Below, one piece after another: positions 5,824 through 24,940 of a stretch of 24,940 nt of DNA. Origin of the DNA: a virus. How positions within the stretch are numbered: the stretch's first letter is position 1; each line of letters begins with the position of its first letter. Both the position numbers and the translations under genes were made by a program. Under the pieces are notes generated by a model. That model made no database searches, had not been told where the DNA came from, and was given only the letters and a program-made list of their open reading frames with translations. The stretch is taken from positions 1 to 24,940 of IMG/VR virus record IMGVR_UViG_3300006080_000169. One strand, given 5' to 3'.

Positions 5824-8800
5824 ATGAGTAAGTATTTAGTAGATAGTCTCCTATCGAGAGACTTCACAGCAAGTAAAAAGAACCAAGTGTCGTACCTAGA
5901 CAGAGTGACAACAGGAGCGGTAGAAGCAGATGAAGACTTCTTCCTTACTGATATTGCCCAAGTACTAGGTATAACTGCTGTGTCCTCAGTAAGTAGTTTT
6001 ATTAACTCGGGTATCGCTATAGGAAACTACTTTGGTAGCGACATTAGCGACATGGAAGTAGAGGACTGGATACCTGACTCCTTTGAGGACGACTATGAAA
6101 GGAGCAAGAGGGGGTATGACTTGGCAGGGGACATTGCCGCCTCTTTGGTACCAGGAACTGGTGCTGTTATGGCGGCTAGGAAAGTGGCTAAAGGAAGTAA
6201 GTACCTAAGTCATTTGTACGATACTAGGCAAGTAAAGAAGCTACATAACTCTAAGGTCAGAGAAGCCCTAAAGGAATTTGCAGATACAGGTAGCTTCAAT
6301 AAGCGCGCATTCTTTGGTAACATCTTTGGAAGGAGTGCTTTGGTAGGTGCTGTAGAAGGGGCTACCTTTGAACTAGGTGCTTATGCAGGTACTCAGTTAT
6401 TCAAAGACTTGGATAAAGATGACCTAGACTACATGGATATTATAGACAGGGCAGCCACAGGGGCAATAGTAGGTGGTGGTATCAATGCGGCATTCCATGG
6501 CTTAGGCTCTTATATAGGTGTTAATAAGAAATTAAATAAAAGGTTGAAGAAGGCTGAAGACCCGCTCGAAGTAGGGGGACTACTGAAGGCTTCTGGAGAG
6601 GGTAACAGAGTAGTTCACCACAAGCATAACATGGAGAAGATCACTGAGTCTGTACCTAGTTCTCATGCAGTAGAGAGTATGCTTACTGTTGAGAGAGTGT
6701 CTATAGACGAGAGTCTAAGGAAGTTGGTAGAACACAGTGATACGGATAAGAGCTTATTCGATCAGGTGAGTATTGCTGTAAAGAACTTGTCATACGAGTA
6801 CACTAGAAACCTACTGTCTGGGCATACTAGTATAGGTAGAGTTGCCAAAAGAACTACTGGGGCTAATTTGGCTGTCAAAGAGCGGGCGCTTTTACCTATA
6901 CCTAAGCAGGTTTTACAGTACATGGATGATATGGCTGATGAAATAGGTAACCCTTTAGCGTTATTAATTCAGAAGGCAAGTACCGAGCCAGAGTTGCTAC
7001 CAAAGAGAGTTTTGAACTTTGTCACTAAGAACGAGTCGGACTTGAAGAGGAACATTAAGACCGAGTCATACGTGAACCTAGATACTGGTGCAAGGTATGA
7101 AGAGCTACTAGAACCTTTCTTAGCTGACTTTGGCATCAAGACTGTACGACTTGGTAAAGATGTTACTAAGGGTACTGTTGAGCTTATGGATGGGGAGATT
7201 CTAAAGTGGGGTAAGTCCCCTCAGATCAATAGAGTGATTGCACAGGCGTTAATTAAGAAGGCTATTAGTGAGAAGAAGGGAGCTTCAGGTATGTTGGGTA
7301 CTAAGGCTAAGGTACTTGACGAGAAGACATTGGAAGAGTATGAAGCCTTGAGTGAGATAATTACGTTAGGTAGGGTAGTGCAGGATGACATAGTTTATCC
7401 CGTAGGAATCCATACCAAAGAGGAGCTTTATGAAGGGGTGAAGAAGCTCAAAATGGAGTTGCTAGGAAAGGCACTTAAAGAAGGTCATAGCTCTGATAAG
7501 ATACTTCAAGACCTAGGTGTGAGAGTTGAGCACACGGTGGTCAAGGCTGAGGGGGACAAGTGGGTGACTCTAGCACAGGGGGACTTGCAACGGGCAACTC
7601 ATGTACGGGCTGTATCGTCTCCTACTACGTTCTCCTTAGATGCGAAAGAGGCTTTCCTATGGGATAAAATGGCGTACTCCCAACTAGAAGATTTTGCACT
7701 TGTTACAGGTACTGGAGTTTTAGGTTTGAGTATTGATAGCTTGCCACAGTTCCCTAAGTATCTATTGAAAGGAGTTATAGACTCTGGAGCTTCTCTTCTT
7801 TCTAGTGCTGCTGTGAAAGGTGGGTACTTAGGAACAGAGCAGACTTTGAGTAATATAGGTGTTATAACTCATAATGTCACTAAGAGAAAGTCCTATGAAG
7901 CGTTGGAAAGCTTAGACCCCTCCTTTGCCCAGATGAAGATAGAGCAACATGGGGTAGAAGAATGGGGCAAGGTTAGAATGTGGTATGATAACCTAAGCTC
8001 TAAGCATAGAGTGCAACTAGGTAACTTCAATAATGGTCAGACGTACTTGGCTACTAAGAAGGTTGCAGATGAAATGCGCGACCTAGATGCCCTACCTGCA
8101 AATGGGATAAGTGGGGTAGACTACATTTTGATTAAGAACGTAGCTACTGCAAGGTGGTTGAATGAGTGGCAATCTACACATGCCCCCATCGCAAAAGAGA
8201 AGTTGGCTACACTAAAGGCGGAAGGTTATCACCCCAAATATGGACACGAGGACTTCTACTTGCCACCAGAGCCTATCAAGTTTGGAGCTATAGTTTATAA
8301 GTCTGGAGGCTTAAAGGGTGTCACTAAGGTAGGTATGCTAAGGGCTGAGAATGCAGAGCATCTTAAAGCTCTTATGGCTAACATTAAAGCTAGTGAGGAG
8401 GAGTACACTGTAAGAGCTATCTCTGACATAGATGACTACTACAATGCAGTAGGTCAGTATGATGTAAGTAGAAGCTTCTCTAAGAAGTATGATTCAGAGT
8501 TCAATAGTAAGAAAGGTGAGGGGGCTAACGTGCATCCTAACTTGAATGGGGGAGTTATAGCTGAACAGTTACAGGCTTATGTACACTCGGCTATCTCTAA
8601 GAATACAAGAAGGGCTGTTAGGTTGGTATACTCTAAGGAGTACTCGATACTAGAGTCTCTAAGAGAAAGACAAGTTGACCTTCAACAGTCGGCTAAGAAG
8701 GGGCAAGGTTTAAGTCTCTTTGATGCTAAGGTAACTCCTGCTGGCAATGCAATAAAGACCATGTTGGATGTACCTCCTGACCAAGCTATAGAGGCTTTAA

Positions 8801-10551
8801 GTACCCTAGGTAATACCGTAGACTCTGTAATATCTGGGTACTTGACTAAGGCTACGGAGTTATTTAAGACTTCTACAGGTAAGAGAGATAGATCCTTGTT
8901 AGTTGATAAGGCTAACCTAGGCGATACCATGGAGAGGTTGAATGACTTGTATGAGGAACTAGGGGGTACTCAGTTTAAGACTGCCTCCGATGTTATCCTT
9001 AACTCAAGACCCGACTTAAACAAGAGGTACTTGCAGAAGTTTCTCAGTACCCTCAATAACTGGTCTGCTATAGGTATGCTTAAAATGGATGGCATAGATG
9101 GTTTAGTTAATAACATGACTTCTGCAATCTTAGGTAGCATGGAGTTCAAAGAGATTTACAAGTCCTTACCTAAGGAGAATCAGGAGATTATGCTTAAATA
9201 CTTCTCTCTTCAAGGGGCTGGGCAGAAAGAGCTTAGTGCTATAAATAGTACCCTAAGTGGTATGAGGGTATATGCCGACAGAAGTACTGGTGGTGCGTAT
9301 GAAAAGTTTGTTGATAAGTGGAAAGCTAGGGGTGGCGGATTATGGATAGATGCAGATGAAGCTTTCAATAGAACTGGTGCAGTGTTGGCTGATACTATCA
9401 ATGGTAACTTTAAGAATCTCAAGAAGGCTAATAGTGCGCTTCGTAAGTTGGGTAGAATGACATTTTTTATCAGTGATAACCTGAACGATCATGCACAGCT
9501 ACAGGTTCTACATATGGTAGATAACATAGCAGAGATTGCGGGGCTTAATGAGAGGCAGATTGTTAGCCTAGCTTCTACATTGAAGAACAGGGTACTTGGA
9601 CACAATATCCCGTCTCAGAAGCCTACCCTCTTTCATGGAGTTATAGGTACACCTATCAGCTTATACCAGAACTATAACTTGAATATTCTCAACATGATGT
9701 TCAAGTACGCTGGGGACAAGAAGTCGTTACTTAGATTCGGAGCTATGCAGACAGGGGTATTTGGATTACAAGGTACCCCTGGTTTCCACCACCTCAATGA
9801 AGCAGTACATACTATCTATGGCAAAGAAGAGGGGCATGATATAAAGTCCATAGTCGATGACATAGGAGGTATGGCTACTACTAAGTGGTTGATGTATGGC
9901 AGTGGCTCTGTTGCAGTAGATGGTGCTTTGTATTCCAGAGGAGACTTGAACCAAAGGAATCAGTTTATTATACCTACTACCGCCGAAGAGATACCTACAG
10001 TAAGAGCGATCACACAAGTGTATAACTCTTTCAGACAGGGAGTTACCGATGTGGCAAATGGTGTACCTGTGTTCGATGCATCCTTAGATGCCCTAGCACA
10101 TAGCCAAATTAATAGACCGCTAACTGGAATTATTGATGCGTATAGGTCTTACAGTACCAGCCAGAAAGGTAACTTAGCAGGTAGGACTCTAGCAGAAGCT
10201 ACGTCATGGAGAGGTAATGTTGCAAGGATACTAGGAGCAAGACCTTTTGAGGAAGCCCTAATAAGAGAGAGGCAATGGAGGTTGGGTAGTTATCAGGCAG
10301 ATAGCCAGAAGGAAGTAGGAAGGTTAGGTCAGAGCTTGAATAGATTGCTACTGTCTAAGGATGGGAACTTGTCTCAGGAAGAGTTAGATACCTTCAGGAA
10401 TAAGTACATGAAGGAGGGTAAGACTGTGGAACAGTTTGAGAAGTGGTTTAATAATAAGGTGAAACACTGGGATGAAGATGCCGTCGATAGACTAGAACGT
10501 AAGGTAAAAGGAACTAGGTACGAAGACACCTTCATGCAGTACTTTAGGTAA
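5824..10551 (+). CDS. Giant internal virion / DNA-ejection protein, gp16-like position (1575 aa)
   Basis: The ATG at 5824 is one base after the preceding TAA, with GAGAGGT just upstream, so the two are translationally linked. The N-terminal third has several Gly/Ala-rich hydrophobic helices (LAGDIAASLVPGTGAVMAAR near residues 98-118; IDRAATGAIVGGGINAAFHG near 207-227), as seen in core proteins that insert into membranes during ejection. The rest is long, mostly helical and without recognised enzymatic motifs. Size (T7 gp16 is 1318 aa) and last place in the three-gene core set support an ejection protein. No transglycosylase motif is visible at its N-terminus, consistent with that domain having moved to the upstream gene. 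The stop codon overlaps the converging - strand gene by 8 nt. Confidence 0.6.
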   Translation: MSKYLVDSLLSRDFTASKKNQVSYLDRVTTGAVEADEDFFLTDIAQVLGITAVSSVSSFINSGIAIGNYFGSDISDMEVEDWIPDSFEDDYERSKRGYDLAGDIAASLVPGTGAVMAARKVAKGSKYLSHLYDTRQVKKLHNSKVREALKEFADTGSFNKRAFFGNIFGRSALVGAVEGATFELGAYAGTQLFKDLDKDDLDYMDIIDRAATGAIVGGGINAAFHGLGSYIGVNKKLNKRLKKAEDPLEVGGLLKASGEGNRVVHHKHNMEKITESVPSSHAVESMLTVERVSIDESLRKLVEHSDTDKSLFDQVSIAVKNLSYEYTRNLLSGHTSIGRVAKRTTGANLAVKERALLPIPKQVLQYMDDMADEIGNPLALLIQKASTEPELLPKRVLNFVTKNESDLKRNIKTESYVNLDTGARYEELLEPFLADFGIKTVRLGKDVTKGTVELMDGEILKWGKSPQINRVIAQALIKKAISEKKGASGMLGTKAKVLDEKTLEEYEALSEIITLGRVVQDDIVYPVGIHTKEELYEGVKKLKMELLGKALKEGHSSDKILQDLGVRVEHTVVKAEGDKWVTLAQGDLQRATHVRAVSSPTTFSLDAKEAFLWDKMAYSQLEDFALVTGTGVLGLSIDSLPQFPKYLLKGVIDSGASLLSSAAVKGGYLGTEQTLSNIGVITHNVTKRKSYEALESLDPSFAQMKIEQHGVEEWGKVRMWYDNLSSKHRVQLGNFNNGQTYLATKKVADEMRDLDALPANGISGVDYILIKNVATARWLNEWQSTHAPIAKEKLATLKAEGYHPKYGHEDFYLPPEPIKFGAIVYKSGGLKGVTKVGMLRAENAEHLKALMANIKASEEEYTVRAISDIDDYYNAVGQYDVSRSFSKKYDSEFNSKKGEGANVHPNLNGGVIAEQLQAYVHSAISKNTRRAVRLVYSKEYSILESLRERQVDLQQSAKKGQGLSLFDAKVTPAGNAIKTMLDVPPDQAIEALSTLGNTVDSVISGYLTKATELFKTSTGKRDRSLLVDKANLGDTMERLNDLYEELGGTQFKTASDVILNSRPDLNKRYLQKFLSTLNNWSAIGMLKMDGIDGLVNNMTSAILGSMEFKEIYKSLPKENQEIMLKYFSLQGAGQKELSAINSTLSGMRVYADRSTGGAYEKFVDKWKARGGGLWIDADEAFNRTGAVLADTINGNFKNLKKANSALRKLGRMTFFISDNLNDHAQLQVLHMVDNIAEIAGLNERQIVSLASTLKNRVLGHNIPSQKPTLFHGVIGTPISLYQNYNLNILNMMFKYAGDKKSLLRFGAMQTGVFGLQGTPGFHHLNEAVHTIYGKEEGHDIKSIVDDIGGMATTKWLMYGSGSVAVDGALYSRGDLNQRNQFIIPTTAEEIPTVRAITQVYNSFRQGVTDVANGVPVFDASLDALAHSQINRPLTGIIDAYRSYSTSQKGNLAGRTLAEATSWRGNVARILGARPFEEALIRERQWRLGSYQADSQKEVGRLGQSLNRLLLSKDGNLSQEELDTFRNKYMKEGKTVEQFEKWFNNKVKHWDEDAVDRLERKVKGTRYEDTFMQYFR

Positions 10552-11179
10552 GAGAGTTTAGGTACATTACCCAAGCTGTCAGTATGAGAAGTCCTACTGC
10601 GGTGATTCCCATTGCCCATAAGGCTATAGCTATAAGAGGAGTTTTACCCTTTTGATTCATGTCCTCTATGAGTTCCTTATACTTTGGGGTTAAGTTCTTT
10701 GGATCTAGTAGGGCTGTTTTAACTGCAAGTTCATGCTCCTCCCTAGCTAAGTCAGTGGAACCTTCTTCCTTTACAGCCTCCTTAGTTGGGGGCTTTTTAG
10801 GTTGTGGGTCTTCCACCTCAACTTTGGGTGCAGACTTAGTTGGTGGCACAGGCGTACCCTTATTAGCTTCACGCTTATCCAAAGCCCCCCTTATCTCCAA
10901 GACTTTATATACCAGTTCAGGATTCTTTAGTAGAACCGTGTTAAGTCTAGTAAGTACAGAGGTAGGTGAACGACTTAGTATGCCTGCTACTTTACTTACA
11001 TAGGCTCTATGACCTACTAAGTCTAGTAGCCTAGTTACTTCATCTTCACTCCATCGTCTACCGTTCTTAGAGACGTCGGTAGACTTATACCCCATAGTCT
11101 TAACGTGTGCCCTTATCTTGTTTCTTGCGTTCTTACTCTCAAGGGGGAATAGTAACCCCGCGTATTTAACCTGTTTCAT
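10544..11179 (-). CDS. Myb/SANT-like DNA-binding protein with C-terminal membrane anchor (211 aa)
   Basis: The ATG at 11177-11179 follows AAAGGAG with an 8-nt spacer and overlaps the preceding gene by ATGA. Residues 41-80 (RRWSEDEVTRLLDLVG then VAGILSRSPTSVLTRL) match the Trp-anchored, three-helix pattern of Myb/SANT-type helix-turn-helix domains, preceded by a basic region. A Pro/Lys-rich linker (108-135) and charged helix (140-175) lead to one hydrophobic segment at about 181-206, five residues from the end. The protein would be tail-anchored with the DNA-binding head in the cytoplasm. A comparable logic is known for phi29 p16.7, which tethers replicating DNA to the membrane with the anchor at the other end. 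Function here is inferred. It is the last gene of the early arm. Confidence 0.65.
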   Translation of the reverse strand: MKQVKYAGLLFPLESKNARNKIRAHVKTMGYKSTDVSKNGRRWSEDEVTRLLDLVGHRAYVSKVAGILSRSPTSVLTRLNTVLLKNPELVYKVLEIRGALDKREANKGTPVPPTKSAPKVEVEDPQPKKPPTKEAVKEEGSTDLAREEHELAVKTALLDPKNLTPKYKELIEDMNQKGKTPLIAIALWAMGITAVGLLILTAWVMYLNSLT

Positions 11180-11421
11180 TGTATAACTCCTTTCTCTTTA
11201 AGTTTACGTAGCTCTATTGTCGCCCACTCTACAGGGTTCACATCACAACTACACTGGTCGCCTTCTAATGTCCACTCTGACTTAGGTAATACCCTAGTAG
11301 CCAGTACTGTGTTACCTTTACTTAGGATTAACTTCAAGTCGCCCGAAGTAGTAGGTACAGCCATTACATTTGGTCTGTCGTCTACTCCGATCTTACGTCT
11401 TTCCCCTAGTCTTATTACCAT
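11176..11421 (-). CDS. Unknown small protein (81 aa)
   Basis: The ATG at 11419-11421 lies inside the end of the exonuclease gene (7-nt overlap) and the stop forms an ATGA with the next start, so it is embedded in a coupled operon. The protein is basic at the N-terminus (RLGERRK) with beta-strand-like middle segments and a helical end (ATIELRKLKEKG). Two cysteines lie close together (CSC) without a full metal-site pattern. I do not recognise a family. Confidence 0.7.
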   Translation of the reverse strand: MVIRLGERRKIGVDDRPNVMAVPTTSGDLKLILSKGNTVLATRVLPKSEWTLEGDQCSCDVNPVEWATIELRKLKEKGVIQ

Positions 11422-11972: not shown

Positions 11973-12043
11973 ATTCTACCTTCCCATTGTAGGTACTCTT
12001 CCCAACACTCTAGTGCTTCTGTGTAATATAGTTTATACATCAT
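11960..12043 (-). CDS. Very small ORF (27 aa) with a strong ribosome binding site
   Basis: AAAGGAG (12049-12055) stands just before an ATGATG (12038-12043). The frame reads 26-27 codons to a TAA at 11960-11962, overlapping the exonuclease start by 13 nt. The product is Tyr/Trp/Glu-rich (begins MMYKLYYTEALECWEEYLQW). The TGA of the upstream 55-aa ORF overlaps the start, the same coupling used throughout this arm. Either it is a true microprotein or a leader whose translation delivers ribosomes to the exonuclease gene. Confidence 0.5.
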   Translation of the reverse strand: MMYKLYYTEALECWEEYLQWEGRIWKT

Positions 12044-12207
12044 ACAAGCTCCTTTAAGCTTAGAAGGGTAAGTACCCCTAGTATTGTCATGGCAGGAACA
12101 CCCCACCAATCAGTTAAATGGTACGTCCAAACGTACCCCATCCCTAGTATCGTAGGCATCCACAATGTTACTTGTATGAATGGTACGACTAGGCTAAGAA
12201 TTCTCAT
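12040..12207 (-). CDS. Small membrane protein (55 aa)
   Basis: This ORF starts at an ATG (12205-12207) within the end of the helicase gene and ends in a TGA overlapping the next start. It fills what would otherwise be the largest gap of the arm. Nearly the whole protein is hydrophobic: a first segment at about residues 3-27 (ILSLVVPFIQVTLWMPTILGMG) and a second at about 34-50 (WGVPAMTILGVLTLLSL), suggesting two membrane helices. A GAGAGG lies 8 nt upstream of the ATG. Size and topology would suit a holin-like or membrane-modifying protein, but its place in the replication arm argues against a late lysis role. No family is recognised. Confidence 0.6.
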   Translation of the reverse strand: MRILSLVVPFIQVTLWMPTILGMGYVWTYHLTDWWGVPAMTILGVLTLLSLKELV

Positions 12208-13444: not shown

Positions 13445-13839
13445 CAGTCGCGCACCAACTTAGGGTGTCTACTTCTTAGTATACCAAGTTGAACATTGAT
13501 CGAGTCTATTAAGGCTCTCGTACACTCCATGTCCTGCTGTAGGGTTTTATAAGGTACAGTTCTCTTGCACTTACCTTTGCACCTAAGTTCCTCACATTGA
13601 ATGGTATACTCTAATATGTCCACTATGTCCATAGCAGGTCTGAACTCTAAGCCCAATACTTGTGGTATTGAGAACTTCCATGACTCTAAGCCTGCCAAGT
13701 TATGTTGGTGCTTGATCATACCATAAGGGTATTCTTCACATGGAGTGGTAGGAGATACCTTGCAACCTAGTGACTTCAATGTATCCATTGTCACATCACT
13801 TCCTGTGGATACTACCACTAATCGCCAAAACTTGTTCAT
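13444..13839 (-). CDS. Unknown cysteine-rich protein (131 aa)
   Basis: The ATG at 13837-13839 is preferred over one 42 nt upstream because it forms ATGA with the preceding stop and has AAAGGTGG at a suitable distance. Cysteines at 26, 34, 82, 87, 91 and 106 include a C-x4-C-x3-C cluster (CEELRCKGKC), which could bind zinc but does not match a finger I can name. The end is helical and basic. The stop overlaps the helicase start by one base, so the two are probably made together; an accessory factor for the helicase is possible but unproven. Confidence 0.65.
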   Translation of the reverse strand: MNKFWRLVVVSTGSDVTMDTLKSLGCKVSPTTPCEEYPYGMIKHQHNLAGLESWKFSIPQVLGLEFRPAMDIVDILEYTIQCEELRCKGKCKRTVPYKTLQQDMECTRALIDSINVQLGILRSRHPKLVRD

Positions 13840-14180
13840 CGCATTACCACCTTTAAGTTTAATTCTTCTAAGGTATACCAAGTCAGGTATCCTTTAGGTA
13901 CACGTACTTGGAATTCTATAGTGTTACCATTCTTATGGCGCGACTGTACTACCTCCCCATTATTCACCTTGTCACCTATATACAATGTAGTCATGTCTGC
14001 ATGTACCACCTTTAAATTACTTGCTTCCATTAAATCTTCCCCTCTTATTATATGTATCAAAGCCCAGCTACAAAATACCACCCACCCACTAGGAGTAAAG
14101 ACTCCTATACCATGTAGGTGTAACGTGAGCAGTATGATTGCTACTAGGGCTACTTGTAGTATGTCTTTAAGTTGGCTCAT
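13836..14180 (-). CDS. Membrane protein with soluble C-terminal domain (114 aa)
   Basis: Residues 7-22 (ILQVALVAIILLTLHL) and 31-46 (SGWVVFCSWALIHIIR) are hydrophobic and likely form two membrane helices. Residues 51-114 are a small soluble beta-rich domain (TTLYIGDKV, NTIEFQVRV, YLTWYTLEEL) reminiscent of short SH3-like folds. The first ATG (14178-14180), inside the preceding gene, has only a weak ribosome binding site. A much better one (GAGGGG, 14039-14044) precedes the internal Met51 codon (14028-14030), so a separate 64-aa soluble form may also be made. No family recognised. Confidence 0.6.
   Translation of the reverse strand: MSQLKDILQVALVAIILLTLHLHGIGVFTPSGWVVFCSWALIHIIRGEDLMEASNLKVVHADMTTLYIGDKVNNGEVVQSRHKNGNTIEFQVRVPKGYLTWYTLEELNLKVVMR
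14039..14044 (-). promoter_or_regulatory. Internal ribosome binding site within the 114-aa gene
   Basis: GAGGGG on the - strand stands 8 nt before an in-frame ATG at 14028-14030 and is stronger than the site at the annotated start. It may yield a soluble C-terminal product. Confidence 0.45.
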
Positions 14181-14450: not shown

Positions 14451-16718
14451 TTAATGTATCTGTGTCCAGACTTCCCCGAACTGAGGAGGGTCTGGTACTA
14501 TGGTAAAGTCTCTTCCATTTATTACATAGGTCTGTGTGAGTGCCGACACCACTTGGTCTGACACTTCATCCTTTATAGAGGGTAGGCATTGAAAGAGTAT
14601 TTCGTCGTGGATAGGGCATAGTATTTCAAACACCCCTTCCTTTGTATGCTTCTCCTCTAATATGTCTAGTCCTCTATGCAAGTACTCTGAACTCATGTTC
14701 TGTGGCTTGGAACTGATGACAGTGTTTAAGGTAGGCTTGTGTGAGGCAGGGTTGTTAAACACTTGTTTTGTCCACCCCCATGGTGTAGTTATTTTACCTG
14801 TAAGTAGTACTTCTTTTATCAAGTCCTTGTACCAACCTTCCATAGAGATTCTAGGGTAGGTTCTTCTGAATTGCTTTAGTAGGTGCATCGCCACTTGAAT
14901 AGGTTGCCATGCTGTAGGTAGGGCAAGTAAGATTTGCGCCCTTATGATGTTATCAACACCCATAGTCTGTAGTAGTATGAATGCCCCCATGTTATAGTTA
15001 GCACCGTGGTTGACTGGCTTTGCTAGTTGCCTTAGAGCCTTGGTTACTTCTTCATAAGGAACACCGAAGAACTTGGATGCGTTGTTCTTATGAAAGTCTA
15101 GGTCTGATTCTACTGCTTCTATGAGTGCCTCGTCCTCTGATATGTACCCTGTGAAGCGTGACTCAGACTGGGGCAAGTCACATGAACCCATTATCATACC
15201 TTCATCTGGTACGATGAATGAACGTGCTGAAGGTAGTGGGTCTTCATCGCCAGTGTTCCTAGTGAATACCATTACAGCTTGACCTAGCTTTGGAGAATTC
15301 TTTAACTTCTTGCCTGACTTTCCCACCACTGGAGATGCCCACAAGTCGGAAGTATTAGATGCCCACCTATCAGATGTAGTTCCTAGTACATTAAGTCCAT
15401 AAAGAAGTCTCCCATTATCTGTGAGTTCCGCTTCTAGGTATGTTCCTATGAGCTTATTAGCACGTCGTACTTCTGTTATTAGTTCTATGATCTTGTGATT
15501 GAATGTACTTAGTCTGGATACTTTGTCCAGTACGTCTGCATCTGCATTAGTTACCTTCATCTGCTTGTAAGTTAGTACCTTCATAAGTTGAAGAGACTGC
15601 TTGGGGGATGCAGGATTGAAGTCTTCAGAGCCTAGGGATGTTCGCAATTCTAAGAGTAGGGCATCCCTATGAGGTACAGCCATATCAAGTGCATCTTGCA
15701 ACCTCTTGGCAGAAGTGTTCATACCTCGTAGTCCGTACTTAACAGCATGGTGTCCACGTTTCATTTTGTATACGGATGCTTCCTTAGCCCATGAGGGAGT
15801 ATGCCTAATAAGGAATAGAAATGATAGTGCTGTGTAGTACACGTCTCTTGCATTGTACTGTATCTTATCTGTTCTGTTGGTAGACTTCCTACCTTCCTTC
15901 CAGTACTTGGAGTCTCGTACACAGAAGGCAGTCACATGTCCTAGAGTCTTTCTCATGTCATGAAACCATGAGTGGAATAGTACCATAGTGTCGAAGGTGT
16001 ATGCCCTAGGTGGTAGCCCCCACTTTAAAAGTAACGTAGAGTCATACCTTCCACCGTGCATTATCTTGGGGGTATCTGATGCGAGCAAGTCTCTACATAT
16101 CTCCCATTGCTCTATAGTCTCTAATGGAACTACGAAGGTTGACAAGGATAAGTCTTTCTTTATGTAAGAGAAGCCTATCATTGTTATGAGGTTAGTCTCC
16201 TCTGAGTGATCTGTGTGAGGTATAGTCTCTATATCTACTGCTACTGCTATAGGGTCGGAAGGGACTAGGGGTACAAGTGCGTCTTTGTACTTGACCTCAA
16301 TGTAAGACAGTGGACTTTGGGGAGGAAAGATTTCGGGTCTAGTCAACTTGGCAATGTACTGAGAAGTCAACACGCAATACTTCACATCATAAGGTGCATA
16401 CTTAATAGTGTCTATTATTAATATGGTAGCACCCTTGTACTTAAAGACACTACCTGCATAAGTGAAAGGTGTAGCCTTATGGTCTTTAGTTAGGAACTTT
16501 AGTATGTCCGCCCTAGTGGTTATAATAACCTTGTGGTTCTTAACTACCTTAGATAGGGTCGGCATAGGGTACTTGGTATAAGTCGCCGCTATACTTGAGG
16601 GGGCTATATTGTTTATGAAGCTGGTATAGTTCTTTTCATATACATTGAGCAACCAAAGAATCCTAGTAGACTCCTTGTTGTTAGATACGTTAGTACCTAC
16701 GTCTGACATTAGGCTCAC
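14451..16718 (-). CDS. Family A DNA polymerase with 3'-5' exonuclease domain (755 aa)
   Basis: This copies the phage genome. The proofreading domain shows Exo I DIET (D162, E164), Exo II GGRYDS (D226) and Exo III YNARD (Y288, D292). The polymerase domain shows the T-x-D-R-W-x-S element (447-454), motif A CDLPQSESR (D514, E519, R521), motif B RQLAKPVNHGANY (R563, K567, Y575) and motif C HDE (704-706). All catalytic residues are present. There is no 5'-nuclease domain. His571 occupies the position equivalent to E. coli Pol I Phe762, where Phe, Tyr or Leu is usual. The start is a GTG (16716-16718) with GAGGA 7 nt upstream and a GTGA overlap with the preceding stop; an ATG at 16707-16709 is the alternative. 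Confidence 0.95.
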   Translation of the reverse strand: MSLMSDVGTNVSNNKESTRILWLLNVYEKNYTSFINNIAPSSIAATYTKYPMPTLSKVVKNHKVIITTRADILKFLTKDHKATPFTYAGSVFKYKGATILIIDTIKYAPYDVKYCVLTSQYIAKLTRPEIFPPQSPLSYIEVKYKDALVPLVPSDPIAVAVDIETIPHTDHSEETNLITMIGFSYIKKDLSLSTFVVPLETIEQWEICRDLLASDTPKIMHGGRYDSTLLLKWGLPPRAYTFDTMVLFHSWFHDMRKTLGHVTAFCVRDSKYWKEGRKSTNRTDKIQYNARDVYYTALSFLFLIRHTPSWAKEASVYKMKRGHHAVKYGLRGMNTSAKRLQDALDMAVPHRDALLLELRTSLGSEDFNPASPKQSLQLMKVLTYKQMKVTNADADVLDKVSRLSTFNHKIIELITEVRRANKLIGTYLEAELTDNGRLLYGLNVLGTTSDRWASNTSDLWASPVVGKSGKKLKNSPKLGQAVMVFTRNTGDEDPLPSARSFIVPDEGMIMGSCDLPQSESRFTGYISEDEALIEAVESDLDFHKNNASKFFGVPYEEVTKALRQLAKPVNHGANYNMGAFILLQTMGVDNIIRAQILLALPTAWQPIQVAMHLLKQFRRTYPRISMEGWYKDLIKEVLLTGKITTPWGWTKQVFNNPASHKPTLNTVISSKPQNMSSEYLHRGLDILEEKHTKEGVFEILCPIHDEILFQCLPSIKDEVSDQVVSALTQTYVINGRDFTIVPDPPQFGEVWTQIH

Positions 16719-22988: not shown

Positions 22989-23486
22989 TTAAATTAATGG
23001 TAACTTGGGTAAATTAGGGTCTTCATACTTAGGGTTAGGTATTAACACACAACCTAGTTCCCCTTTGTACATGTGTCTTGATACGTCTACCTTTATCTTG
23101 AAACCCCCTAGTATCTTGTTAGGGTAATTAGGGTGTACTAAGATATACTTTATAGAAGGTGAGTCTCTGTCTATGGCGGAGGTAGCCAAAGGAGTTGCAC
23201 CTACTAGCTTAGCCTTCTCCCTCCATATAGAGCCATGACCATCATGAGGTGCTAGAAGGTGGGCAACCTCATGGGCAACCGTATCGAACGATACTGTAAG
23301 AGGCTCATGTAAAGATTCTATGTATAGGGGGTTAAGCTCTATTGCTTTATTACCAACGTGTGAACGTCCCATAGTGGTTGATGGTAGCTCAGGGTTAATA
23401 ACTATGGTGGCATCTACAGAATGCTCTTTGAGTAGTAGTCTGCCATAGGCTAGGACTAACTCAATCCGCTCTCTTTGAATGTTCAT
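22989..23486 (-). CDS. SprT-like zinc metalloprotease (165 aa)
   Basis: The zinc site AHEVAHLLAPHDGHGSIW gives H72, E73 and H76, with H84 as the likely third ligand, followed by a helix with WREKAKLVGATP, as in SprT-like proteins. SprT family members include SPRTN/Wss1, which digest proteins crosslinked to DNA; phage homologues are poorly understood. There is no C-terminal zinc ribbon. ATG at 23484-23486 is chosen because it overlaps the helicase TGA (ATGA); a GTG two codons upstream is the alternative. Coupling to a helicase suggests action on DNA-bound proteins, but the substrate is inferred. Confidence 0.75.
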   Translation of the reverse strand: MNIQRERIELVLAYGRLLLKEHSVDATIVINPELPSTTMGRSHVGNKAIELNPLYIESLHEPLTVSFDTVAHEVAHLLAPHDGHGSIWREKAKLVGATPLATSAIDRDSPSIKYILVHPNYPNKILGGFKIKVDVSRHMYKGELGCVLIPNPKYEDPNLPKLPLI

Positions 23487-24940
23487 ACCCACGTCTCCAG
23501 ATCATCGTCATCTTCTGGGGGTATCCACTCTTCTACAGGGTTATCATGCAACCAGTCTAGCTTCTCTGGTATAGAGTTCCCCTTGATGGACTGTCTGTTC
23601 TTTGTGATGGTGAAGGTAGTAGGCTCAATTTGTAGGTATACCTCTCTCTCTGTACGAGAAAGCATAGTGAACATCATTTCTCTATCTAGGGACTTGTGAG
23701 AGTTATGGTGGAATATGAATACCTTATCCCACTGTCTTCCTTGTGCCTTGTAGGAGGTGATACAGTGCGCACCTATTAGCTTAGATATAGCACCTTGTGA
23801 AGATAGAGAGTATTCTAAGTCTAATTCTGTATCGTATAGGTTGATAGTATGAGATACAGACCTTTGAACGAACGAATCGTCTTTTTGTGCTTCAAGAAAG
23901 GGGTTCTTCTCTAGTTCATCTAGGTCTATCTCTATACCTTCCGATGTAGGTCTACCCCTTTCCATGCCTATCTCAGCTTCCTTGTATACTCTTCCTTCAT
24001 GTGAGTGTAGGGGTTCTACTGAAGTGACTATGCAAGGGCGATTCTCGTGTAGGACTGAATCACCTTCTGCAAAGTACTTATACTCATACCCTGATACTAC
24101 CTCATGCGTCTCCTTTTGATTCTTGAGAGACCAGTAGGCATTGATATGTTTGTTTATTAAGGTAGTACCAAATTGTTTATTATAAGGTATGAGTATAATA
24201 TCGCCATATTGCGACCAGTTGTATTTCTCTATGAATGAGGTGGCTACGTCTTTGGTATCCCATAGGAAGTTGATAGCCTCATAGGGTAGCTTCTTTGAGA
24301 AGTAGTTAATATGTAAAGCACCAGACTCATTAGAGTCCTCATACTTCTTCTTGAACCCCTCTGGTGAGGCATTGACTACTTTACCTTCAACTAGGTCATG
24401 CAATAGCTTCAATACAGGTGACTCAGCCTTCTGTCTATAAGTCTCTGTTAGAAGTACACTCTCTATCCTTGTGGCTTGGTACTCTAATACACTTCTACCA
24501 AAGGGGGGTCTCTGCTGATTCAAGTCACCTATGAATATAATCTGACACTCAGGAGGGAGGGCTTGAGATAGGTGGTAGTATAGTTCCATATTAGGTAGGG
24601 TAGATTCATCTATAAATACTACCTTAAGTCCTGTAAGCGGATTCTCTTCATTTCTTTGTGGCTCGAATCTTGAGGTAGGTATCAGTTCACCATTCTCCCC
24701 TACCTTCACACCTTCAACTAGGGTATACTCTAAGAGCTTATGGATAGTCATATAGTGCTTTCTATCTTCCTCCTTGGCTCTATTCTTCGCATTATTAAGA
24801 GCAGAGTTCGTATAAGCTACCACTACCACGGCAGGCGCATCTTCAGGGAAGTACTTATGAGTAGAGCCTAAGTAGATATGAGGTACAGTAACTAAGCAAT
24901 CAGCTACACAGTCAACTGTAACCTCTGTCTTACCACTACA
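23483..24940 (-). CDS. RecD/Dda-like SF1 helicase (5' end beyond window; 485 aa visible)
   Basis: The frame stays open to the right edge, where the first visible residues are CSGKT, the end of a Walker A motif; so the true start lies outside and GTG at 24827-24829 is not the start. Counting from that GTG, Walker B VVFIDES lies at 70-76, motif III FIGDLNQQRPP at 99-109 and TETYRQ at 128-133. The C-terminal motifs TSYKAQGRQWD and MLSRTEREVYL complete the SF1B (RecD/Pif1/Dda) set. Such helicases move 5'-3' and help origin opening, recombination or strip proteins from DNA. The acidic C-terminal end (EEWIPPEDDDDLETW) may bind a partner. Its stop overlaps the SprT-like start. Confidence 0.9.
   Translation of the reverse strand, partial: CSGKTEVTVDCVADCLVTVPHIYLGSTHKYFPEDAPAVVVVAYTNSALNNAKNRAKEEDRKHYMTIHKLLEYTLVEGVKVGENGELIPTSRFEPQRNEENPLTGLKVVFIDESTLPNMELYYHLSQALPPECQIIFIGDLNQQRPPFGRSVLEYQATRIESVLLTETYRQKAESPVLKLLHDLVEGKVVNASPEGFKKKYEDSNESGALHINYFSKKLPYEAINFLWDTKDVATSFIEKYNWSQYGDIILIPYNKQFGTTLINKHINAYWSLKNQKETHEVVSGYEYKYFAEGDSVLHENRPCIVTSVEPLHSHEGRVYKEAEIGMERGRPTSEGIEIDLDELEKNPFLEAQKDDSFVQRSVSHTINLYDTELDLEYSLSSQGAISKLIGAHCITSYKAQGRQWDKVFIFHHNSHKSLDREMMFTMLSRTEREVYLQIEPTTFTITKNRQSIKGNSIPEKLDWLHDNPVEEWIPPEDDDDLETWV

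Follow-up and report, generated by a model that had tools for sequence, protein, structure and literature searches.

A predicted tail-anchored DNA-binding protein with a Myb/D5-like head in a phage replication gene cluster

Our analysis points to a phage protein of 211 amino acids that is, with a probability of about three in four, a tail-anchored DNA-binding protein. The profile, fold and hydropathy results support an architecture of a helix-turn-helix (HTH) head, a flexible linker and a C-terminal tail anchor. The gene lies on an IMG/VR record whose entire length of 24,940 bases is referred to as the window. The phage genome is probably larger than this record, as related complete-looking records have 42-47 kb. 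The gene, its parts and its neighbours are as follows.

10544-11179, minus strand: gene for the 211-aa Myb/D5-like protein with a predicted tail anchor (open frame, ribosome-binding site, codon usage)
11075-11179, minus strand: basic N-terminal segment, residues 1-35, with a helix at 16-28 (models and D5 alignment)
10922-11059, minus strand: three-helix Myb/SANT-type HTH, residues about 41-86 (profiles, alignment, AlphaFold2 model, fold matches)
10760-10864, minus strand: Pro/Lys/Glu-rich linker of low pLDDT, residues 106-140 (model and composition)
10640-10759, minus strand: mixed-charge juxtamembrane helical part, residues 141-180 (model and composition)
10562-10639, minus strand: uncharged hydrophobic segment and predicted membrane anchor, residues 181-206, with five residues after it (hydropathy)
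11176-11421, minus strand: upstream 81-aa gene of unassigned function, overlapping the start of the 211-aa gene by 4 bases
5824-10551, plus strand: convergent 1575-aa gene, putative internal virion protein (role from position and size)

The open reading frame placed at 10544-11179 by an earlier, sequence-only reading is present there on the minus strand and looks coding by its codon usage, a strong AAAGGAG ribosome-binding site ahead of the ATG and the 4-base overlap with its upstream neighbour. Specifically, its codon log-likelihood is 0.258 per codon versus 0.025 for the overlapping antisense frame, and its codon usage agrees with that of the other genes of the phage, whereas that of the antisense frame does not. 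The 4-base overlap likely couples translation of the 81-aa and 211-aa genes. At its 3′ end the gene overlaps by 8 bases with the end of the convergent 1575-aa gene, which, judged by position and size, probably encodes an internal virion protein. Apparent virion genes occupy the plus strand in the left part of the window. The minus strand of the right part encodes a family A DNA polymerase, a DUF3987 primase/helicase-like protein and an Rv2179c-like exonuclease, together with a Sak4-like AAA protein, a PD-(D/E)XK nuclease and a Dda-like helicase. The 211-aa gene is the final gene of this replication cluster, downstream of the polymerase, DUF3987 helicase and exonuclease genes. It had been described as the last early gene: it is the last on its strand, while its early status is suggested by the replication genes upstream and not by a promoter.

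Some further features of the window were recorded. A strong terminator-like hairpin (17066-17037, minus strand; 13 pairs followed by a T run) is located between the genes for a 176-aa and a 96-aa protein, before the polymerase. It possibly splits the minus-strand cluster into two transcription units, so that the polymerase part may form a transcript of its own. A 55-aa frame (12040-12207, minus strand) with two hydrophobic stretches and weakly coding-like codon usage fills the space from the helicase gene to the exonuclease gene and could encode a small holin-like membrane protein. A further membrane protein of the cluster, 114 aa long and lacking a family match, is encoded at 13836-14180 (minus strand); its N-terminal part is hydrophobic and its C-terminal part soluble. 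A gene of the SprT-like metallopeptidase family (Pfam E 8.5e-8) was found amid the replication genes at 22989-23492 (minus strand). Searches of the window revealed no tRNA or Rfam family, no clustered repeats pointing to an origin or operator and no conspicuous cluster of candidate binding sites.

The better-supported kinship of the head is with the D5-like (T5) family of phage DNA-binding proteins, which the earlier reading had not named. The best PHROGs match of the protein was phrog_323 'D5-like' (E 1.8e-4, residues 20-82), covering 63 of 319 profile positions, and the top PHROGs matches, which fall on residues 20-95, were D5-like and other HTH families. One of these families, phrog_31591 'HTH DNA binding protein', matched with E 0.004 for the full protein and 5.7e-4 for the isolated domain. 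Among Pfam families the isolated domain was best matched by Myb_DNA-binding (PF00249) at 14.0 bits, which is under the curated cut-off of 24.4 bits. The tryptophan conserved at the start of Myb helix 1 is present as W43, and by inspection the head is basic, with about 15 Lys/Arg versus 6 Asp/Glu in residues 13-86. For a more direct comparison a profile of the second D5 repeat was built from D5 proteins of T5-like phages and related environmental phages (IMG/VR). Residues 15 onward align without gaps to the last helix and linker that precede the second Myb-like repeat of the D5 family. Over residues 15-85 this gapless alignment scored 8.8 bits versus a best of 7.6 in 2000 shuffles of the N-terminal 105 residues, and the score exceeds that of every open reading frame of the related loci except a relative in the locus L002. 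The score is modest and the resemblance to the D5 repeat would be a distant one. The 211-aa protein carries a D5-like domain and is not filed here as a D5 protein. A small hand-made Myb model built without the window sequence did not find the protein (E 3.9), and the evidence therefore rests on the larger families. Matches of P22 Abc1 to residues 42-96 were at chance level (E about 1) and were discarded.

Structure models agree with the profiles. AlphaFold2 without an alignment placed helices at residues 45-54, 58-67 and 72-85 with low confidence, and with a 21-row alignment at 45-56, 61-67 and 72-85, with block means of pLDDT 80-85 over residues 41-80. The alignment was built from D5 sequences and the second model is thus partly guided by D5, while the single-sequence model is independent of the D5 hypothesis. 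Fold matches included the Myb domain of CDC5 in spliceosome entries such as 7qtt (Z 7.2, 1.1 Å over 48 residues), Myb 1h8a (1.3 Å over 45 residues) and bacterial HTH proteins such as SpoIIID (Z 7.4), and GcrA-annotated viral proteins were also among them (E 0.035 and 0.13). The HTH matches have Z values in the range of 6-7.4, and a Z below 8 may by itself reflect merely a common arrangement; nearly all matches listed are Myb/SANT or HTH domains. The suggestion of an HTH-like head beginning at W43 is therefore borne out by PHROGs, the sub-cut-off Pfam Myb match, the single-sequence helices and the alignment-based model, with the domain extending to about residue 85, and the structure prediction and profile search proposed for it yielded a three-helix HTH fold at 1.1-1.3 Å to Myb domains with D5-like as the top profile. 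The single-sequence model of the full-length protein was too poor (pLDDT 51) to serve as a query and was dropped from the fold search. Ahead of helix 16-28, in residues 1-15 (11135-11179, minus strand), the model made with the alignment shows two short strands of low confidence.

The Pro/Lys linker noticed in the sequence is evident in residues 106-140, which contain 8 Pro and 7 Lys/Arg in 35 residues. The tail holds the sole hydrophobic segment of the protein, and hydropathy gave no N-terminal hydrophobic signal. Residues 181-206, read from the sequence as a single C-terminal hydrophobic segment, are uncharged and are flagged by hydropathy as a membrane-type segment. The peak Kyte-Doolittle value of 2.52 over 19 residues was equalled by only 24 of 20,000 shuffles of the protein, a run of 28 residues is free of D, E, K, R, N, Q and H, and the single-sequence AlphaFold2 model spans the tail with a continuous helix (165-210). 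By hydropathy, the protein thus has a single transmembrane segment within about 30 residues of its C-terminus (181-206 of 211), as is required of a tail anchor. Lysines directly precede the segment, no charge follows it and the end is short, so that the positive-inside rule predicts a head in the cytoplasm, and an N-inside tail anchor at residues 181-206 would be expected. The window and related loci together have 1316 open reading frames with 120 aa or more, and a looser tail criterion returned a couple of dozen others among them, by inspection mostly antisense or non-coding-looking frames, with none standing out as a comparable gene. A match of the tail to DUF7420/phrog_2313 (E 0.007-0.08) was set aside as an effect of the transmembrane helix; it was absent in the related records searched.

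A polymerase-based search provided 80 related loci at 30-35% identity. Many of them share a common order of polymerase, helicase of ~420 aa, variable small genes and a convergent gene of ~1500-1800 aa, and the 211-aa gene occupies the variable slot of these related podoviruses, which do without a tail-anchored protein there. Since the relatives manage without such a gene at the slot, it is regarded as accessory. Searches with the 1575-aa virion protein and with the helicase found no close relatives of either. Full-length homologues of the 211-aa protein were not found in 50,697 phage records, IMG/VR patterns, GTDB genomes or plasmids, nor in 49 related viral records and phage P5, although the latter search lacked a positive control and carries little weight, and near relatives of the record may be absent from the collections searched. 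A phrog_323 search of 50 records, the window included, gave three matches, namely the window, L002 and L025; with only three matching records, D5-like domains appear to be occasional accessories of these phages. The protein that L025 encodes in the same slot (14701-15378) has 225 aa and joins two Myb-like repeats, which match phrog_323 with E 7.4e-9, to an XRE-type HTH. That of L002 has 297 aa and a single D5-like domain, and its gene lies upstream of the polymerase gene. Neither protein has a transmembrane segment in the same hydropathy scan, and among the D5-like proteins of these phages the pairing of an HTH with a membrane anchor is seen in the window protein alone.

The computations establish the open reading frame, the order of its domains, the HTH fold and the hydrophobic tail; from these we infer that the tail inserts with the N-terminus inside, that the head binds DNA and of which kind, and that the protein acts as a tether. 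A single Myb/SANT-type (D5-like) HTH domain would face the cytoplasm, with the flexible Pro/Lys linker and a short helical stretch setting it about 95 residues apart from the single C-terminal transmembrane helix. The head might bind phage DNA by way of its basic surface or with a weak preference for certain sequences, and once anchored it could retain genomes at the inner membrane during or just after their replication. Of the single roles that we can assign, holding phage DNA at the membrane is the likeliest, at somewhat less than even odds, because the gene lies among replication genes and T5 D5 is annotated as DNA-binding and as needed for both DNA replication and late transcription. For the HTH of D5, contact with DNA was reported from an AF3 model (PMC13405049). 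The pairing of HTH and anchor is kept in no relative, and conservation thus lends the tethering role no support. It also counts against a tether that related podoviruses do without such a gene at the slot, that no cluster of candidate binding sites stands out in the window, that SANT domains can bind protein instead of DNA and that a lone Myb repeat is often weak in DNA binding.

The head could instead act on phage (late or middle) or host promoters, with the anchor placing or gating a transcription regulator at the membrane. The filing of phrog_323 under transcription regulation, the requirement of late transcription for T5 D5, the joining of D5-like repeats to an XRE-type HTH in the slot protein of L025 and the existence of membrane-bound HTH activators such as CadC (PMC5430869) all speak for this. 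However, only five residues lie beyond the anchor, leaving no periplasmic sensor as in CadC/ToxR, and operator-like repeats near genes were not found in the window, so that we consider such a regulator unlikely. A protein acting in host takeover or exclusion, with no part in phage replication, is rather unlikely as well; it would draw host DNA towards the membrane, or interfere with the membrane or with the DNA entry of other phages. It would suit a slot between helicase and convergent virion gene that varies among related phages like accessory genes do, the nearby genes for small membrane proteins (12040-12207 and 13836-14180) and the toxicity of some overexpressed phage HTH and membrane proteins (PMC11797047), but no match to a host-takeover or exclusion family was found in PHROGs, NCBIfam or Pfam. 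The regulator and host-takeover readings stay live beside the tether, and the present results favour none of them decisively. Both functions offered by the earlier reading, a tether for replicating DNA or a membrane-bound regulator, are compatible with the results.

Two further readings concern the tail. The protein might be soluble, with a head that binds DNA and a hydrophobic C-terminus that packs on a partner protein, a reading supported by the lack of transmembrane segments in the D5-like proteins of L025 and L002; given 28 residues free of D, E, K, R, N, Q and H and a mean hydropathy typical of membrane helices, this is improbable. A lysis-related membrane protein (holin, antiholin or spanin-like) with an unusual N-terminal domain appears more improbable still. 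Its tail is a single hydrophobic helix with a weak DUF7420/phrog_2313 match, and Aeromonas phage P5 has an M15 peptidase in the equivalent stretch, showing that the slot can hold lysis genes. Against this, the weak match is expected from any transmembrane helix, no endolysin gene adjoins the 211-aa gene, and a basic cytoplasmic part of 180 residues with an HTH matches no holin or spanin class known to us.

Dedicated phage proteins that tie the replication of tailed phages to the membrane have been little explored outside phi29. A DNA-binding head with a membrane tail in a podovirus replication cluster would open membrane-tied replication to testing, and it points to a D5-like DNA-binding module that lends itself to re-use with a membrane anchor.

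Several known systems share parts of this architecture. GcrA-like phage regulators have a similar type of three-helix HTH, but the window protein gives no significant profile match to them and, to our knowledge, they have no membrane anchor. The activators ToxR and CadC likewise combine an N-terminal cytoplasmic HTH with one transmembrane helix, but theirs is a winged HTH, and they carry a periplasmic sensor where the window protein ends five residues past the helix. Mycobacteriophage Amelie gp65, with a predicted HTH and membrane helices, inhibits growth on overexpression (PMC11797047); being already on record, it makes an HTH with a membrane helix in a phage protein not unprecedented, although its four helices are N-terminal and its HTH is near the C-terminus. 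T5 D5 shares the Myb/SANT-like HTH and a gene position among replication genes. It differs in being 255 aa long, in having more than one such unit and in showing no obvious membrane segment, whereas in the window protein a single full unit is followed by a linker and a tail anchor. Accordingly, D5 matches nearly the whole phrog_323 profile (E 1.2e-71) and the window protein about a fifth of it, without the tandem units.

Like phi29 p16.7, the window protein is a small phage protein that would pair a DNA-binding domain with one membrane helix. In p16.7 the anchor comes first and is followed by a domain of homeodomain-like fold, and phi29 is a protein-primed phage. The comparison in reverse order had already been drawn from the sequence and is fair as an analogy, the only hydrophobic segment of the window protein being C-terminal. 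Solved structures exist for p16.7, and a phmmer search of all PDB chains, p16.7 included, gave no sequence relation to the window protein at E up to 10, a search that distant homology could escape; its chains were absent among the fold matches listed, which excludes nothing. A role of p16.7 at the membrane and in replication has been described (PMC4974454, PMC11476376), and the protein is the best functional analogy, with an independent origin of the window protein being plausible. That a D5/Myb head and a C-terminal anchor evolved independently into a replication tether, doing a p16.7-like job in a polymerase-A podovirus with the reverse domain order, is a more doubtful proposition than tethering as such and may be regarded as a tentative extension of it.
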